Virus record (IMG/VR): IMGVR_UViG_3300020473_000025
Location: 1-64,000 of that record
Source of the DNA: a virus
DNA: 64,000 bases
Strand: one strand, 5' to 3'
Each line of letters begins with the position of its first letter. Position 1 is the first letter of the stretch. The position numbers were made by a program, and so were the translations under genes. Below are positions 4,952 through 40,928 of the stretch, piece by piece. Below the pieces are notes generated by a model. The model was not told the origin of the DNA. It worked only from the letters and a program-made list of their open reading frames with translations, and did not search any database.

Positions 4952-5503
4952 ATGGCTGAAGCCCAAAAGAAAAGCCCAATGCAACAATTCGTTCTATCTC
5001 AAGCTACAACTGAAGCACTTGAGAAAGTTGCCACTGTTGGTATCGACGCAAAGAAAATCGAAGCGTCTAACGTTATCACTAGCCATGTTGAATCAGTGTC
5101 TAATGGCGTTATCTCTTACGATGTACCTAAAGACGTTGCAGCGGGTCTATTGCCTGAAGGCTTGACAATGGAAACTGTTGACCAGGTTGGCGAGTTCCAC
5201 AAGAAGTGTGCAACAGCACTAGCGCAAAGTGTATCTGAAGTAGGTATCGATGCGATGGCGCAGGATAACGAAGTAACAACAGTAACCGGCTCATTACCAG
5301 TAGGTAAGTATACCAAGCTAGAAGCTACAGTACACCGCTCTAAAGACATCAGCTATCCTAAAGATGGCCAGCGTGTCACCGAAGCACGTCCAGGTCATGT
5401 AGACCTTAAAGTAACATCGAGCTACGGTAAGAGCTCGTCTAGCCACGTATCAGCGGTACGTACGCACGCGGCGGCACTAGCTAAACAGCTATTGTCTAAA
5501 TAG
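4952..5503 (+). CDS. Unknown, probably abundant early protein (183 aa)
   Basis: This 183-residue protein lies behind an early promoter with a clear AGGAAG ribosome site. Its codon use looks strongly biased to a few codons, like that of the shell protein gene at 34957, which suggests high expression. It is rich in Ala, Ser, Val and Lys, with a Ser-rich patch near the C-terminus and a basic tail. There is no recognised domain, signal peptide or membrane segment. A strong hairpin terminator follows. The function is unknown; a host-takeover or abundant DNA- or shell-associated role is only a guess. Confidence 0.75.
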   Translation: MAEAQKKSPMQQFVLSQATTEALEKVATVGIDAKKIEASNVITSHVESVSNGVISYDVPKDVAAGLLPEGLTMETVDQVGEFHKKCATALAQSVSEVGIDAMAQDNEVTTVTGSLPVGKYTKLEATVHRSKDISYPKDGQRVTEARPGHVDLKVTSSYGKSSSSHVSAVRTHAAALAKQLLSK

Positions 5504-5527
5504 GGATAGTCTATACGTAAGCCAAGG

Positions 5528-5575
5528 ATGGTAGAGACGTTACAGTCTCTACCATCTATGCCGTATTCTTTTTTT
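5528..5575 (+). terminator. Strong hairpin terminator with TATGCCGT and T-tract
   Basis: A perfect 11-bp stem (5528-5538 / 5545-5555) is followed by TATGCCGT (5557-5564) and a run of seven T. The hairpin contains an ATG that opens a frame into the next gene, but that start is not believable. Confidence 0.88.
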
Positions 5576-5662
5576 ACATGTTTTATTAGATCTTATGAGC
5601 CCTCCTTAGCAGGGCTATATTCATATTCAGGTGTTATGAATCTACTAACGAGGAGACGTATC

Positions 5663-6070
5663 ATGCATACTGAAAAGTTACGTCTGGTGATCAGCTCGCC
5701 ATTCATTCACGCTGCATTAAACAGCGACACCCATGCGTTGGCGTCTATGTTCAATCCACAGTGTCTGGCGATTGGTGAAACGATCACTAGTCAAGATCAC
5801 ATGCGTGCAAAAGCACTTTATAATGCAGTAAGTACACAGGCACCAAGTTGTACGTTTGACAAGTATGCTTATGTCCATTACTGGATACACCGTCACCAAT
5901 ATACGGGATGGGATGAAGTAACCATGGTAAACCAGCTTATAGATAACATAATCAATAACCATGCCGCTTACTTATTCTTAAACGAAGCTTATTACTTCGA
6001 TACTGACCAGGTGGTGACGCTTTACCAACAAACACTACAGGCATTAGATAACCTAACAGCTAGTGCGTAA
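5663..6070 (+). CDS. Unknown small protein (135 aa)
   Basis: The frame is open from 5528, but that start lies inside the preceding terminator. The ATG at 5663 has a well-spaced AGGAG ribosome site (5651-5655), so I take this start. The 135-residue protein is helical and rich in His, Tyr and Asn, beginning with a short beta-like stretch (LRLVISS). No domain is recognised. It is followed by a 102-aa gene with its own AAGGAG site. Confidence 0.65.
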   Translation: MHTEKLRLVISSPFIHAALNSDTHALASMFNPQCLAIGETITSQDHMRAKALYNAVSTQAPSCTFDKYAYVHYWIHRHQYTGWDEVTMVNQLIDNIINNHAAYLFLNEAYYFDTDQVVTLYQQTLQALDNLTASA

Positions 6071-6497: not shown

Positions 6498-7100
6498 ATG
6501 ACTACTCCACTTATAATACTGGCGGAACATTTACCTGCGTTTAAACACTATATACCGCCTACACATCAACAGTGGGTAGATATAGATCGTGTTAGCACAC
6601 TAGGCATACCCTGCACCAATTTAAGTGATGAACCTGTACTGACCAACACTACCACAGAAGAAACCGTCATTGCCCTAAGAAGCGCGTTAGCTAACGCTGC
6701 TGCAGAAGATTTCATCAACATCCCCACTTACCTTAAAATGGCTTGGCTGGAAACCTCTAGGCGGATGACATTATTCGACACCATGAAATCTAGAGAAGAC
6801 CTGATAGACTCTACACTTATCTATCTTAGTGAATTAGAGTCTGTGGATGTCTCTGAGCTCATTTATGAGCAAACTGATCTACTTCATAGACTTATGCCTA
6901 AAGTCAACATACAGGGGCTTACAGAGCGTATAATGAGTATATACATGGAGATGAATAAGTTAGTTTACGATAGTGATTTAATATTAACCTCTCCAGCCAT
7001 TGCCGAAACTGTCTTATATCAAGTAGGATTACTTGATGTGGATCCTGTAGATTTTGTCAATAGACTAATAGCCCACCTTGTATTTAAACAAAACCTATAA
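6498..7100 (+). CDS. Unknown protein (200 aa)
   Basis: A TAAGGA ribosome site precedes the ATG at 6498. The 200-residue protein is mostly helical and rich in Thr, Leu and Ile, without a recognisable motif. It is the last plus-strand gene before the tail genes on the opposite strand, and a bidirectional terminator separates them. No function can be assigned. Confidence 0.68.
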   Translation: MTTPLIILAEHLPAFKHYIPPTHQQWVDIDRVSTLGIPCTNLSDEPVLTNTTTEETVIALRSALANAAAEDFINIPTYLKMAWLETSRRMTLFDTMKSREDLIDSTLIYLSELESVDVSELIYEQTDLLHRLMPKVNIQGLTERIMSIYMEMNKLVYDSDLILTSPAIAETVLYQVGLLDVDPVDFVNRLIAHLVFKQNL

Positions 7101-7101
7101 C

Positions 7102-7156
7102 GACGGCATAAAAGAGCACGATTAAATCGTGCTCTTGTTATTATGCTTTTTTTTTT
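7102..7156. terminator. Bidirectional terminator between convergent genes
   Basis: GACGGCATA (7102-7110), the reverse complement of TATGCCGTC, precedes a perfect 12-bp inverted repeat (7112-7123 / 7125-7136; the central bases must form the loop). TTATGC and ten T follow on the plus strand. It serves the plus-strand gene ending at 7100 and the minus-strand gene ending at 7155. Confidence 0.85.
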
Positions 7157-8015
7157 ATGCCGCTGGGCTAGAAGCTCGCTCTACTAATTCAGCAAAGCCG
7201 TTATCTACAGCGTCAAGATCAGCAGTGATCTTATCAACAAACGCAGCGCGGTTGTTCGGGTTAACACCTGAAAGTGACATGGTGTCTAGGATAGACTGTG
7301 CCACGGCATCAACCGTTGTACCTACTTGAGTAAGACCAGTAAACTCGATCGAGTGAAGTACTGACTCACCAGGAGCAGTAAGATCACGACGACCAATGTT
7401 TTCACCACCAGTCTTAGGCATCATGTTGGTAACTAACCAAGCATTGTTTACACGTGTGTGTGTTGGATCAGGTTCGATGAAGATCATGGTCATGCTGACG
7501 TAGTCAGGCAATAGATCCGCAGGAACATTCTCTGCCAAGTTAACAACACGTGGTACTTTAGTTTCAGGATCCATCAACAGGTTCAGCATCCAACCCTCGA
7601 AGAATTTGTTGATCACACGACCATACTTCTCAGGGAAACCAAATACAGGAACAGAACGTTCACGTGTAACGTTAGCGATGTCTTCTTGGAACTCACCGCC
7701 ACCACCTACTGCGTTTTCAACAAACTCAGCAGTTAGCGTTGAAGTCAACCCTTCAATGGTTTGTGCGTGAAGCTCAACCAGGTTCTTCAGCGTTGAAATC
7801 CAAACATCACTGTCAGGTAAGTCGCTAAAACCACGAGGGGCTTCAAGAAGTACCGGGATGATGTTACGCTTAACGTAGGCAGCGTTAGAGTGAACACTGT
7901 TGTAGTCCACTAAAAAGCCGTTCTGACCATTTTTGGTAAGGTCTACGCCTGTGTCTTTTGAGGTCGCTAAGTGGCCAACCCCTGCCTTTAGTACTGCTTC
8001 AGTTACACGAGCCAT
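7155..8015 (-). CDS. Tail tube protein (phiKZ-like)
   Basis: The 286-residue product is encoded directly downstream of the sheath gene, the usual order in contractile-tail phages. The sheath stop and this ATG overlap by one base (TAATG), giving coupled translation. The protein is rich in beta-type segments and Asn/Val/Thr and lacks Cys-rich or catalytic motifs. Tube subunits form the rigid inner channel through which DNA passes. The identification rests mainly on position and size; a second structural subunit of another kind is the alternative. Confidence 0.65.
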   Translation of the reverse strand: MARVTEAVLKAGVGHLATSKDTGVDLTKNGQNGFLVDYNSVHSNAAYVKRNIIPVLLEAPRGFSDLPDSDVWISTLKNLVELHAQTIEGLTSTLTAEFVENAVGGGGEFQEDIANVTRERSVPVFGFPEKYGRVINKFFEGWMLNLLMDPETKVPRVVNLAENVPADLLPDYVSMTMIFIEPDPTHTRVNNAWLVTNMMPKTGGENIGRRDLTAPGESVLHSIEFTGLTQVGTTVDAVAQSILDTMSLSGVNPNNRAAFVDKITADLDAVDNGFAELVERASSPAA

Positions 8016-34956: not shown

Positions 34957-36825
34957 ATGGCTGTAAATAAAGATAACAAGTCTACTCCGTCTAACCCTGC
35001 TATGGCAGAAGCAATGAAAGAGTCAGGCGCGCAGCAAAGCCGTTCAACAAACCAAACCCAACCCAGTCGAGGAAGAAACGTGGAAGGTCCAAAATCCCTA
35101 GCCGGTCTTAATTCTTTATTCAGCAACCCAATGACGCGTAGCACTGCAGGCGAAGTCACTGGTGAGCTAACTCAAACGCTTCGTAAGATCCTATCTTCAG
35201 AGCGCAACAGCGTACTTGAGAAAGTAACGATTGAACCTGTGGACGGCGATAGCCATTCACTAGCCCTTTCTGTAATTGTATTACAGTTCCCATTCAACGA
35301 GCACGTTGCCTGCTATACCTACATTGTAGAAGGTTCTGGTGACGGTCTTGCAGATCGCGTTCCAACTATTGCCGGACAGCAAGTAAACATCAAGACTGTT
35401 CCTGGTGACGTATACGACGATAACATGTGGGAACAAGTTAACATGTATCTTCGCAGCAAGTACGGTAGTGAACGCAGCTTCATCGATGTTGGTGCTAACG
35501 TAATTCCACGTACAGTTACCGCTGACCATGAGAAAGAAATCCGCAGCCTGTTATACTTCGGTATCACTGCGTGTTACACTACTCTACTTAAAATCAATGG
35601 CGATGCCAGCAACAGCATTAGCGTAGCTGATATCAACACCGGCGACGTACTAGCAGCGCAACTTCGCTACAATCCAGGCGACACACAAACGGCTGCTGGT
35701 CAAACTGTACGCTCAGATCTATCTATCGCACTACGCGGTATTATGCAGACAGGTGAAGCGGTATCTGCTAAGCAGACCATTCCACTAACCACTGTTGATG
35801 GTTACATGGATCTAACTTACGTTCCACGTCAGCAACAACAAATGGCGTATGGTCAGCCTGTTGATCACCGTCAATACGTACCGCGTCTAGTAATGACTAA
35901 CGTATCTTCTGGTCTAAGCGTTAACACGCTAGAGCTTGAACTACTAGGTCTTTCTACTACGGTACTAGCAGCCCAGCACCACGCATGGGTTAAGTGCTTC
36001 AAGCCTGTATACGGTGCAAGCAAGAATGACATCCATGACATCGGTGCACTAGGCTTTGAAGTTGATTTCGCAAACAATGGCGAGTACGGTCGTATCTCTA
36101 CTAAGAGCGATTCATTCTCAGACCAAAGTCTGTTTGAGCTAGTACAACGCAGCATGTACAACGAAGTACTGTTCTCTTGGGATATCCCTGAGACAGGTGA
36201 CCTAAGCTGGTTACAAGAAACGTTCCTAGCCGCAGCGGCTGGTAACAGCAAAGCAATTAACACTCTGTTCAATGCAGCAGATACGTTAACTGGTGGTGCG
36301 TTTACTCGTAACTACGACGGTGCTCCTCCTCTAATGAGTGAGATTACTCGTGTACATCTTGGTACTTACCTAGATGAAAACAATACTCTACGTGATCTAC
36401 GTGATCTTGATTACCTAGCGATGCTAAACATCTACGGTGATAAAGACCTAGGTCTAGTTGAAGCATTTGGTAACACATACGACCAGACTGATCGTCCTCA
36501 AGAACTACGTCTGGCAGAGCGTGCTAAAATCATCGAAGCTACACTAGGTGATACAGTAACCATCACTGGTTACGCACGTCGTGTTACATTCAATCCTAAG
36601 TTCATTGAAGCGCTTGCTATGGCTTGTGCAGAAGCTGGACTTAAGATCCGCCCTGAGGGTATCTACGGTAACGACATGGGTGCCATTCGTGGTAACACGT
36701 CAGCTGTTGGTATGGGTATTGGTCAAAACGCCGGTGGTGCTGTCTTCCAACAAGGTGGTGCTAACTGGGGCGGTTCTGGTATGGGTTACGGTGCTCGTAA
36801 CTCTGGTGGACTGTGGAACCGCTAA
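34957..36825 (+). CDS. chmA: Probable chimallin, major shell protein of the phage nucleus (phiKZ gp54 / 201phi2-1 gp105-like)
   Basis: In this family ChmA assembles into the protein shell that encloses replicating DNA and excludes host nucleases. The evidence here is mainly size (622 residues, near the roughly 600-630 of known ChmA), an early promoter, highly biased codon use indicating strong expression, and synteny: the RNAP beta' N-terminal gene lies just downstream, as phiKZ gp54 precedes gp55. A Ser/Gln-rich disordered N-terminal arm (about 1-50) precedes AGLNSLFSNPMTRSTAGE. A large alpha/beta core follows, and from about 585 a Gly-rich tail ends in SGGLWNR. Flexible N- and C-terminal segments link neighbouring subunits in known ChmA lattices. 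The Gly-rich tail is distinctive. An alternative is another abundant early protein, but the context argues against it. Confidence 0.78.
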   Translation: MAVNKDNKSTPSNPAMAEAMKESGAQQSRSTNQTQPSRGRNVEGPKSLAGLNSLFSNPMTRSTAGEVTGELTQTLRKILSSERNSVLEKVTIEPVDGDSHSLALSVIVLQFPFNEHVACYTYIVEGSGDGLADRVPTIAGQQVNIKTVPGDVYDDNMWEQVNMYLRSKYGSERSFIDVGANVIPRTVTADHEKEIRSLLYFGITACYTTLLKINGDASNSISVADINTGDVLAAQLRYNPGDTQTAAGQTVRSDLSIALRGIMQTGEAVSAKQTIPLTTVDGYMDLTYVPRQQQQMAYGQPVDHRQYVPRLVMTNVSSGLSVNTLELELLGLSTTVLAAQHHAWVKCFKPVYGASKNDIHDIGALGFEVDFANNGEYGRISTKSDSFSDQSLFELVQRSMYNEVLFSWDIPETGDLSWLQETFLAAAAGNSKAINTLFNAADTLTGGAFTRNYDGAPPLMSEITRVHLGTYLDENNTLRDLRDLDYLAMLNIYGDKDLGLVEAFGNTYDQTDRPQELRLAERAKIIEATLGDTVTITGYARRVTFNPKFIEALAMACAEAGLKIRPEGIYGNDMGAIRGNTSAVGMGIGQNAGGAVFQQGGANWGGSGMGYGARNSGGLWNR

Positions 36826-36910: not shown

Positions 36911-37429
36911 GTGGCAAAGCCTATAGTTGAATCAATCTTAACAATAACAACACCTCGCCCATCAGATATCAAAACACTTGAAGAACAGCAAGGTATTATT
37001 CTCAAACCCATTAACGGTTTTAAAGATGCATGGGTTAGTCGATGTGGTAAAATCATCAAACTACACTACCCGCTAATGGGTGATGCGTGTTATTACTACG
37101 CCACCCTCACGGTGCGCCGTCAAGATCAACGTTTGATGGTAACACTCAAAAGCAGCGCTGGCTCTACCATGCGAACGCTATCTGGTTTAGTCGCTCGTGC
37201 CTATCTAGAAGCGCCTATAGACCCCTCGCGTTTTGATTTAATCAACATTGACGAGGACAGAAGTAATTGTCATGCCGATAACCTAGCATGGCGGCTTAAA
37301 TCTCACACTACCAACTACTATTACGAGGTGAAAGATACGCGTGATGGTTCAGTTATGGAGTTTGATACTAAGAAAGATTTTCATGATTGGGTAAGTAAAA
37401 CGTTTACGTTTAACAGAAAGAAAAGGTAG
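36911..37429 (+). CDS. HNH-like protein with an altered metal-site His (172 aa)
   Basis: It starts at GTG with an AAGGA site. Residues around 112-128 (NIDEDRSNCHADNLAW) align with the HNH segment of homing endonucleases, such as NHEDGDKHNNHADNLEW in the intron protein at 38972. The first His of the motif is replaced by Asn here, while the later His, Asn, Leu and Trp remain. The N-terminal part resembles a NUMOD4-like beta region (DAWVSRCGKIIKL). It is a free-standing gene between chmA and RNAP beta'. It may be a decayed homing endonuclease, or a DNA-binding protein kept without cleavage activity. Confidence 0.7.
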   Translation: MAKPIVESILTITTPRPSDIKTLEEQQGIILKPINGFKDAWVSRCGKIIKLHYPLMGDACYYYATLTVRRQDQRLMVTLKSSAGSTMRTLSGLVARAYLEAPIDPSRFDLINIDEDRSNCHADNLAWRLKSHTTNYYYEVKDTRDGSVMEFDTKKDFHDWVSKTFTFNRKKR

Positions 37430-37537: not shown

Positions 37538-38890
37538 ATGCAGGCTGATATCAGTGCGGTAGCTGACCCGACTAACGCACCCATCGATCAACTTAAAGGT
37601 CCTATTAGTTGGAACTATGACGATCGACAAGGTGGTGTTCATCTGGCGCTAGAAGATCATGATAAGATCTTTAATAACCTGTCCAACCCCCCTATCATCG
37701 TCAATGACGTCAACACGCTGTCTCAGGAAGACAAACAGAAATTCAATGATCTAATATCTACGCGATACGAGGGTGATTCATTATCTATCGTACCGTCGTG
37801 TGACTGTGGTGAATTATCAGGCGGTTATAACTTAGGTAAGGTTTGCGGTGTCTGTCAGACTGAAGTCCAGCAGTCTACAGAAAAGCGCATCGAGTCTACG
37901 TTATGGATGAAAGCACCGGATGGTGTTCATGGGTTTATTAACCCTAACGTCTGGTTGATGTTTGAGAAATACTTCTCAAGTAAGCAGTTGTGTCTTGTCG
38001 AGTGGTTGTGTAATCCTAACCTACGTTACGACAATGAGAAGAATGAGTCATTAAACCGCTTGAAGCGTTACAACTTTAAACGTGGCTATAATAACTTCAT
38101 TGAAAACTTTGACACAATAATGAATGCACTGTATGACATATTCGCTATACACAAGCGATTAGAGATACAAGACTTTAAAACCACGATGCGTAAGTATAGA
38201 CATTGTCTATTTAGTCAATACGTGCCGGTGCCTTCTAAAGTCGCATTCGTAACAGAGAAAAACGATTCAACCGTTACCTCTGATACGCAGACATCGTTAG
38301 CGATGGATGCTATACGTACCATGTCGTCTATCAAACAGGCACTACGTCCTCTTATGCCTAAACAGCTAGAGAACCGTACCCTTAAGTGTGTTAAACAGCT
38401 TGCTGTCTATTATGAAGAAACTTACAAGACACGTCTTGCCTCTAAAGATGGTTTCATTCGTAAACACATGATATCAGGTAGATTGCATTATACGGCACGT
38501 GCTGTTATTGTATCGTTGAGTGAACCCCACGAGTACGATGAGCTACATCTTCCATGGGGGTTATCGGTAGGATTACTACGTACGCACCTGACTAATAAGT
38601 TGTTAAAGTTAGGGTATACGCCACGTGCTGCTGCTTGTCTATTGCAAGAGTCTATTAGCCGCTATCATCCACTTGTAGATACGCTGTTAAATGAACTTAT
38701 AGACGAGTCCCCGTGTCTATCGGAAATAGCAGAACACGAACTTACCATGCCTAAGAAGAAAGGTCTGTATGTAATCATCCAGCGTAACCCATCACTACAT
38801 AGACTGTCAGCACAGTTCATGCGGGTTACTAAGATCATTAAAGACCCTAGCATCCAGACTATATCAATGTCAGTATTATCATTGACTGGT
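37538..38890 (+). CDS. Non-virion RNA polymerase beta' N-terminal subunit, exon 1 (phiKZ gp55-like)
   Basis: The first 451 residues of the beta' N-terminal subunit of the phage-made RNAP that transcribes later genes. A zinc ribbon with Cys88, Cys90, Cys103 and Cys106 matches the beta' N-terminal site. IQRNPSLHRLSAQF (near 418-431) matches the cellular LNRAPTLHRLGIQAF. In cellular beta' the catalytic NADFDGD follows about 25 residues later. Here it is missing: the frame runs into a stop at 38911 shortly after SVLSLTG, because a group I intron begins. Splicing to 40614 restores the active site and gives a 520-residue protein. Unspliced message would give a 457-residue, catalytically dead fragment. 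A GGAGAG site precedes the ATG. Confidence 0.88.
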
Positions 38891-40613
38891 CCCAACAGAT
38901 TAGTTGCTTAAATAAAATGTAAAGAAAAAAGTACCTTAGCTATAGTATGAGATATAGTTGAGGAACTAAAAATGAGTAAAGAAAATTGGAAACCTGTCAA
39001 GGGTTTCAGAAATGTAGAATGTTCGTACGACGGTAAGGTTAGGACGTTTAAATTTGATCGATATGCTGGTAGCAAGATCTATCACTATCCGTCAATTAGA
39101 GAAACTCCAACATCTAAAGGTACTTATCTGACGGTGTCGGTGGTACCAGAAGATAAAGAACACTTTGTCACTGCGCTCGTCCATGTCCTCGTGGCTGAAG
39201 CCCACGTTGATAAACCAGATACTGATGAGTTATTAGAAGTTAACCATGAAGATGGGGATAAACATAATAACCACGCAGATAATCTGGAATGGATGACACG
39301 CTCCGATAACCTTAAACACGCTTATAGGACAGGTCTTAGATCTGACTCTAGAGAAGTTAAGGTAGAAGATCTCGAAACAGGTGAGGTTCAAACCTTCTAC
39401 GCTATTGCTGAGTTTGCAAGAGCGTATGGATTAAGTGAGAACAAAGCATTAACCATCGCTAATGGATCAATGCGTCATCCGTGGAAAGGTCGTTATCGGA
39501 TAACGATATCAGGCGACTTTACCGTCAGAAAGCAAAAACATGTTAAAGATCTTGTAGCTAAGGACTATGTAACTGGTGAATTGATAATAGCCGATTCTAG
39601 ACTAAGTTTAGGGTTGATGTTAAAGATACATCCAGCTTCTATCACCTATCATCGCACCAGGCGACCTGATCAGCTTCTCGCTGGTTATGTAATGCGTGAA
39701 CTCGAAGAAGATATACAATGGCCTTCTTTTACTAAAGAAGAAGCCATAGCTTCTAGAGACGCGTATATGTGTCGGCCAAAAGCAAAGGATAAGCAGTTTG
39801 GCGTGGTGGTGAAAGACTACATAACTAATTCTGTTACAGAATATAAAGACATGGTGGAAGCAGAGAAAGCAACAGGCGTTAATCGTGGTACTATTAGTTT
39901 TGTATTGCGTCGTGGATCAGACATGCCCTTTAAAGGTATGGTGTTTCGATATTTAGGTGATGATAAACCATGGCCTGAGTTTCCCGATGATGTGGTAGAA
40001 GTTCTACCTCTTGTCAAGAAACCAGAATACCCATTGGCTTATATTCACGATAAAGAGACAGATGAAACAACCCTGTATGCTTCCATTGCTGACTTTGCGA
40101 GGCAGAACGGGTTTAATGCTGTCTCGGCGTCTAACGGCTTTAAGCAAAAGGGCGAGTTTAAAAACCGCTATAGCTATACTCCTCTACATTTAGAAACATT
40201 TATTTAAGTAACCACAGTTGCGCCTACCAGTAATGGTGGGTCGAGTGACTCTTTGAACTGCTGGTAAATCCTAAAGCTTCTCTTACTACAGCATAGCTTG
40301 AAAAGGCAAGTGCGAATGTTGATGAAAATCAGAAAGAAAAGAGAAGATGACCTATGGCGAAAGTCTAAGGGTTGCTAACAATGGAAGCTCAGCATCTAAG
40401 ACCCTCTATGTTTCAGTGGGTGAAGATCAACGACTATCCCGGTAGCGGGAGTAGGACACCAAGTGGGTCCGAAGTGGAGAGCACCCTACCAGGTTAAGCT
40501 GGGGGTGAAGATATAGTCTAGCCTGTCTGTGAATTGACACAGAATACATGCCAGTATGGATGAAAGTCCCAGCAGCATGTAATGATGCGGGTAGGTATTA
40601 ACGACACCTATTG
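38891..40613 (+). mobile_element. Group I self-splicing intron with HNH endonuclease gene
   Basis: This 1723-base insertion separates two parts of RNAP beta'. The core lies 3' of the endonuclease gene. P7 can be read as GACTAT (40432-40437) pairing with ATAGTC (40513-40518), the latter within the conserved GAAGATATAGTC segment of group I introns. A P8-like hairpin (GGACACC / GGGTCC) and a P9-like hairpin flank it. The last intron base is taken as G40613 and the last exon base as T38890 (T38887 is an in-frame alternative); both junctions follow the U/G rule and keep the frame. A possible guide sequence GGTCGA (40239-40244) could pair with exon TTGACT and would favour 38887. The exact 5' site is therefore uncertain by three bases. 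Confidence 0.83.
38972..40207 (+). CDS. Intron-encoded HNH homing endonuclease (411 aa)
   Basis: The N-terminus (WKPVKGFRNVECSYDGKV, about 6-23) is NUMOD4-like. An intact HNH motif, VNHEDGDKHNNHADNLEW (90-107), follows. The C-terminal part has several NUMOD1-like repeats that should bind DNA: EIAEFARAYGL-type segments near 142-152, a MVEAEKATGV segment near 293, and SIADFARQNGF near 377. Each is paired with a short G-K/F-RY/YR strand. The predicted role is cutting intron-less copies of the RNAP beta' gene to spread the intron. A GAGGAAC site precedes the ATG at 38972. It is transcribed within the early unit of its host gene. Confidence 0.88.
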   Translation: MSKENWKPVKGFRNVECSYDGKVRTFKFDRYAGSKIYHYPSIRETPTSKGTYLTVSVVPEDKEHFVTALVHVLVAEAHVDKPDTDELLEVNHEDGDKHNNHADNLEWMTRSDNLKHAYRTGLRSDSREVKVEDLETGEVQTFYAIAEFARAYGLSENKALTIANGSMRHPWKGRYRITISGDFTVRKQKHVKDLVAKDYVTGELIIADSRLSLGLMLKIHPASITYHRTRRPDQLLAGYVMRELEEDIQWPSFTKEEAIASRDAYMCRPKAKDKQFGVVVKDYITNSVTEYKDMVEAEKATGVNRGTISFVLRRGSDMPFKGMVFRYLGDDKPWPEFPDDVVEVLPLVKKPEYPLAYIHDKETDETTLYASIADFARQNGFNAVSASNGFKQKGEFKNRYSYTPLHLETFI

Positions 40614-40823
40614 AATAACGCGGCCGATTTTGACGGCGACGCTTTGAACATTCTCTTAATCACTGATAAAGAGATGATGCGTAAGATGTACCGACTGTCA
40701 CCCCATTATGGTATTTTATCGCTTCAAGAACCATCCAAGGTCTCTGGTTGCGTAGGTATGCCTAAACCGGTGGTAAGTACTATTGATAACTGGTTGAAGA
40801 AAGGTCCTAAAGTTCCAGCTTAA
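40614..40823 (+). CDS. Non-virion RNAP beta' N-terminal subunit, exon 2 with the catalytic DFDGD
   Basis: The last 69 residues (452-520 of the spliced protein) begin NNAADFDGDALN. DFDGD carries the three aspartates that hold the catalytic magnesium in all multi-subunit RNAPs. The TTG at 40611 that opens the frame is the intron's last codon-like triplet, not a start: it has no ribosome site, and a catalytic loop without the rest of the subunit would be useless. The remaining part includes a HYGILSLQEPSKVSGCVGMPK segment that ends the beta' N-terminal half; beta' continues as a separate subunit encoded at 57456. Confidence 0.88.
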   Translation, partial: NNAADFDGDALNILLITDKEMMRKMYRLSPHYGILSLQEPSKVSGCVGMPKPVVSTIDNWLKKGPKVPA

Positions 40824-40840
40824 CCAGAATAAAAGGATTG

Positions 40841-40863
40841 GCGTGCAGAACGGATCTGCATGC
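40841..40863 (+). terminator. Hairpin after RNAP beta' exon 2
   Basis: A 9-bp stem (GCGTGCAGA / TCTGCATGC, one G-T pair) with a 5-base loop is followed by TTTATT. There is no TATGCCGT tail. Confidence 0.5.
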
Positions 40864-40928
40864 TTTATTAAAACCTAATACGGTAATTGCTCTCATAGAG
40901 AGCTTCGTATTAAACAGGAGTCATTATA

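Follow-up and report, generated by a model that had tools for sequence, protein, structure and literature searches.

A phiKZ gp56-like group I intron in the RNA polymerase catalytic motif of a nucleus-forming phage, and probable contest for that motif among group I introns

The system closest to the locus reported here is the gp55 gene of phage phiKZ, which is interrupted at AAT/GGACAA ... AATACG/GCTGATTTTGAC (slashes in sequences and residue pairs mark junctions). The native polymerase purified from infected cells includes gp55 as a protein of 56 kDa (PMC4666361), and residues 417-421 of the gp55 product are DFDGD (PMC8287921). The structure PDB 7ogp_A, in which PHIKZ055 is joined to PHIKZ056.1, reads ...LKAPNADFDGD. 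Because the joined protein is present in 7ogp_A and gp55 is recovered at 56 kDa, splicing at this site is effectively established; the literature searched does not discuss it. A second precedent is PhiPA3 gp210, whose action on phiKZ has been demonstrated experimentally (Birkholz et al. 2024, PMC11620839), whereas our case was read from sequence alone.

We analyzed a 64,000-nt stretch of virus DNA (the window, meaning that whole stretch) taken from an 80,292-base IMG/VR virus record. Its ORF at 37538-38911 encodes a phiKZ gp55-like nvRNAP beta' N subunit that matches 275 phage records, and a chimallin gene (34957-36825) adjoins it; the host of the intron is a giant nucleus-forming phage. An initial sequence-only reading had placed a group I intron within the catalytic codons of the polymerase gene, and this placement is upheld by an RF00028 core, by empty alleles in relatives and by a single junction that restores the peptide (Table 1). 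Alignment with uninterrupted homologues agreed: four IMG/VR contigs (L007-L010) encoding a 98% identical protein are continuous through the site, where they read SLTGPNADFDGDALN. Only one pair of junctions, after 38896 and before 40623, restores the relatives' peptide (GPN/ADFDGD). Exon 2 then opens with GCC GAT TTT GAC (ADFDGD), and the intron ends in G (...AACGCG/GCC), a position set by the spliced peptide. The opening NNAADFDGD given for exon 2 in the sequence-only reading has to be corrected, since the restoring junction lies six bases downstream of the boundary it had claimed. Splicing at ACT/GGT..TTG/AAT, which would produce that opening, offers a T and a G as splice-site bases, yet it would turn GPN into NNA in an invariant motif, and it was rejected.

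The insert is very probably a mobile group I intron whose spliced product restores the catalytic loop. The intron RNA, transcribed within the nvRNAP beta' gene, would fold and excise itself, and excision would join ...SLTGPN to ADFDGDALN... and rebuild the loop. It is extremely unlikely that the gene goes unspliced, with beta' consisting of two separate polypeptides, the one with DFDGD being a small protein translated independently and starting near 40611. Split RNAP subunits are common in jumbo phages, and the frame opened by the TTG at 40611 does read MNNAADFDGD; against this, the 98% identical relatives are continuous across the site, the two pieces are separated by a group I core, and for the identical phiKZ site the joined protein has been isolated and solved (PMC4666361). 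For all introns except that of phiKZ, we infer splicing from the sequence.

The surroundings of the gene also differ in places from those in the intron-free relative L007. A free-standing HNH-like ORF (36911-37429, + strand; phrog_959, E=7.9e-9) lies between the chimallin and RNAP genes and is kept in L007 (4374-4892). Directly behind its RNAP gene L007 has a 285-aa ORF (6595-7452) that is missing from the window (40824-40928), and the RNAP C-terminus is GPKVPA in the window versus GPKVKEEAV in L007.

The ribozyme core is the only Rfam match in the whole window. It scores 42.8 bits against RF00028, with E=5.1e-9 when 2.2 kb were searched and E=1.5e-7 when the 64 kb were searched with all families. 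The covariance-model search thus favors a group I intron, as had been proposed, though the score is below the curated gathering cut-off of 50 bits, at which this core is not reported. Both strands of P7 are where the sequence-only reading had put them, and P7 and the conserved core align with those of the introns at the same site in phiKZ and L062, which score 75.6 and 74.8 bits. The final base of exon 1 (38896) is C; T stands at this position in the other 31 of the 32 introns first delimited. At group I 5' splice sites exon 1 ends in a U paired to a G of the guide, a feature that is near-invariant and not strictly defining. With C at the exon end, the splice-site pair would be C-G, not U.G, and this copy could splice poorly. 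A search for a P1 of five or more pairs, U.G included, gave no match for the window intron. Exon CAAC facing intron GUUG is a possible P1 of four pairs; L062, at the same site, has GUUU facing exon AAAU, one compensatory change relative to the window. Since the candidate guide adjoins P2, the HNH ORF would sit in the P1 loop.

These observations bear on whether the intron is decaying, with efficient splicing lost and the allele defective or slow. No other exon 1 among the 32 delimited ends in C, and the core score compares with 50-90 bits for most relatives. We nevertheless consider decay unlikely: the HNH frame, the exon frames, P7 and the core consensus are all intact, CAAC and GUUG would supply four Watson-Crick pairs, and full loss of splicing would not be tolerable in an essential gene.

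The endonuclease ORF looks intact, as had been claimed, with HNH_3 (Pfam, 7.7e-8) and NUMOD1 (4.6e-8) domains and a match to PHROG 59 (phrog_59) at E=3.8e-42. Its best phage relatives include phiKZ gp56 (E=8e-28, about 28% identical), and it has two relatives in IMG/VR, both weak. From what is known of the family, the HNH protein, its ORF lying in the candidate P1 loop, would in a mixed infection nick or cleave copies of the site that have no intron, and repair of the cut site would copy the intron in. By analogy with PhiPA3 gp210, which lies in a different gene (vRNAP beta), it may act in competition between phages.

The window and L007 differ at 73 of 515 codons, 65 of them synonymously, and the longest run of differing codons in the gene straddles the insertion (Table 1). 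In shuffles a five-codon run arose anywhere in 2.2% and at the insertion site in 0 of 20,000. This run of synonymous differences fits co-conversion during homing, and because it flanks the insertion and near-identical relatives have no intron, the arrival of the intron appears to be recent. Cultured phages yielded no near-identical DNA.

Table 1. Features of the window intron and its gene, and insertion points in gp55 homologues
Feature	Position in window	Strand	Remarks or carriers
nvRNAP beta' N subunit exon 1 (phiKZ gp55-like)	37538..38896	+	ends ...SLTGPN; PHROG 2987, E=7e-136; aligned to uninterrupted relatives
Group I intron, 1,726 nt	38897..40622	+	5' end AGATTAG, 3' end AACGCG; absent from L007-L010
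Exon 2 of nvRNAP beta' N	40623..40823	+	ADFDGDALNILL... up to stop codon
HNH homing endonuclease ORF, 411 aa	38972..40207	+	HNH_3 residues 69-114, NUMOD1 residues 278-309
Group I ribozyme core	40200..40540	+	RF00028 model positions 1-253, all 253 covered
P7 5' strand GACTAT	40432..40437	+	inside conserved core
P7 3' strand ATAGTC	40513..40518	+	inside conserved core
Candidate P1 5' strand, exon CAAC	38893..38896	+	putative, read from sequence
Candidate internal guide sequence GUUG	40217..40220	+	would pair with exon CAAC, four Watson-Crick pairs
Five consecutive synonymously differing codons (P N/A D F)	38891..38896 and 40623..40631	+	straddle insertion; reference, empty-site relative
N/A insertions			window, phiKZ, L062, L075
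A/D insertions			L086, L067, L073, L097
D/F insertions			L039, L060, L071, L094, L075
Insertions inside the F codon (phase 1, after base 1)			L012/L013, L042
D/G insertions			L014, Vibrio phage Yong XC32
G/D insertions			L039, L060, L052, L059, L067, L073, L074, L078, L091, L097
D/Q insertions			PA7/L079, W10-2, PS119XW, L075
Insertions just upstream of motif			A/P LucasX; F457 phase 1 L052; A/T L097
RNP motif insertions			RN/P: L073, L091, L097, KTN4, PA_ZH1; RG-S: L067

It had been suggested that the beta' N-terminal site is a different landing place from the one used in phiKZ. It is not: the gp56 intron interrupts phiKZ gp55 at the identical N/A boundary, which is N458/A459 in E. coli numbering (motif N458-D464). 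To delimit introns in gp55 homologues we combined a profile scan with reading of the junctions, and 22 of 71 non-redundant gp55 rows proved to be intron-bearing. Seven insertion points lie at or inside the 21-nt NADFDGD sequence (N/A, A/D, D/F, within F, D/G, G/D and D/Q). Most of these introns match RF00028; those of L059 and L086 and the last one of L097 do not, and were assigned by junction and motif reading alone. The G/D introns have in common a guide-like sequence near the 5' end (GCCGUC, GCUGUC or close variants), which pairs with exon GACGGU to place a U.G at the splice site. The clustering of insertions in phase 0 can be explained simply: motif codons often end in T, the base needed by a group I 5' splice site. 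In the literature searched, which has most subscription journals outside it, there was no earlier report of a gp55 hotspot or of mini-exons, and relative to that literature the recurrent invasion of NADFDGD codons is new.

Two introns vary in their coding content. The G/D intron of L078 gave two RF00028 matches and was considered as two introns; on reading it is a single 724-nt intron, whose ORF of roughly 116 aa (about 5457-5807) is unlike an HNH endonuclease. The N/A intron of phi9_PA9 (L122), closely related to that of phiKZ, is 484 nt long with no large ORF, and has apparently lost its endonuclease.

In some metagenomic phages the gp55 gene holds two to four introns that leave exons of 6-20 nt, which puts catalytic aspartates on separate exons. 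L039 reads NAD/intron/TTTGACGGT/intron/GATGCT, with a 9-nt exon encoding FDG, and the 9-nt exon of L060 encodes YDG; in both, the three Mg-binding aspartates are spread over three exons. A 12-nt exon encodes DFDG in L067 and in L073, the last exon of which falls beyond the end of its contig. The four introns of L097 delimit exons of 15 and 12 nt, L052 has an exon of 20 nt, and L075 has one of 6 nt that encodes AD, the least certain of all, and one of 12 nt that encodes FDGD. The source of these alleles is metagenome contigs without reads, and they could in principle be assembly chimaeras. This is very improbable, given that a like arrangement recurs in the seven separate contigs just named with the motif restored in frame, that most of the single insertion points are found alone elsewhere, and that the cultured phages KTN4 and PA_ZH1 also have two introns in the gene, though with no micro-exon.

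Insertion points differ even between close relatives. The gp55 tree pairs the window with L007 as its sister and places L012 and L014 beside this pair (100% support), and these four phages show four different states. The exon-1 proteins of phiKZ and PA7 are 99.8% identical and the insertions are at N/A and D/Q, respectively; W10-2, like PA7, has its insertion at D/Q, and KTN4 and PA_ZH1 have a second intron at RN/P besides that at N/A. Minimum changes on the tree, which comes from a quick search and gives counts that do not separate gain from loss, were 8 for G/D, 5 for D/F, 4 each for N/A and A/D, 3 for RN/P and 2 each for D/Q and F phase 1. The earlier suggestion that so conserved a site limits escape by mutation calls for qualification: the site turns over fast, and related phages use different points in this motif.

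We propose that NADFDGD is a shared target of several endonucleases, and that its occupancy would shield a phage from rivals' endonucleases aimed at neighboring positions. The chimallivirus RNAP catalytic motif is probably a battleground of group I introns, with at least seven insertion points at or within 21 nt, rapid turnover, a virion paralogue that is also hit, and alleles of two to four introns with exons down to 6-12 nt; the introns may be both shields and weapons. There is nearly, if not quite, an even chance that the clustering reflects only a general rule by which introns occupy conserved codons and involves neither competition nor shielding between them. Introns and inteins are known to insert as a rule at conserved sites (PMC2814812), and most codons of the motif end in the T required at a group I 5' splice site. 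The rule alone does not explain the differing points in near-identical phages (phiKZ and PA7; L007, the window, L012 and L014), nor do these contradict it.

Polymerase genes other than gp55 are invaded as well. Exactly three RF00028 matches occur in phiKZ, all in RNAP genes (gp55, gp71-73 and gp180/179), and the gp180/179 intron splits LGAD/FDGD of the virion polymerase. The annotated gp180 (L100, phiKZ 180000-196000) stops at LGAD and FDGD follows the gp179 intron, so the annotated product is without most of the catalytic motif. Across 24 records we counted 68 RF00028 matches: gp55 accounts for 32, other RNAP genes for 26 and DNA polymerase for 2, with 8 unplaced. The gp55 share is biased because the records were mostly picked for gp55 introns. 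Six matches on one contig (L101, G016 184000-196000) fall within the beta' and beta genes of the virion polymerase or in the stretch between them. The phage DNA polymerase gene carries group I introns in L113 and L116, and in L116 the intron is close to DLVSAYPS, which is likewise a catalytic motif.

With the window intron the phiKZ gp56 lineage gains a member, one that comes with an empty-site sister and an arrival footprint. More broadly, a short motif in which no phage can afford changes has been invaded at nearly all of its codon boundaries, in cultured and uncultured phages alike. As cultured Pseudomonas phages with near-identical gp55 carry different introns, the question of selfish elements versus weapons and shields is directly testable, and the micro-exon alleles would test the minimum size of an exon shared by two adjacent group I ribozymes.

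Judged by its identical boundary and homologous core and endonuclease, the window intron belongs to the lineage of the phiKZ gp56 intron. Like the phiKZ gp55/gp56/gp56.1 arrangement, it lies in the same gene at the N/A boundary and has an HNH ORF 5' of an alignable core; exon 1 ends in T in phiKZ and in C in the window, and the cores score 75.6 versus 42.8 bits. PhiPA3 gp210 is likewise an intron-encoded HNH endonuclease of a nucleus-forming phage, and its group I intron also interrupts a catalytic RNAP gene, but that gene is the one for vRNAP beta (gp211/209) and the site follows two conserved aspartates (PMC11620839). The vRNAP beta' introns of phiKZ (gp180/gp179) and LucasX (LUCX_4/LUCX_5) split the paralogous motif, LGAD/FDGD, and differ in residing in the virion polymerase and at the D/F boundary. 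For multiple group I introns per gene, phage Twort offers a parallel, to judge from the title of Landthaler and Shub 1999 (via PMC11620839).
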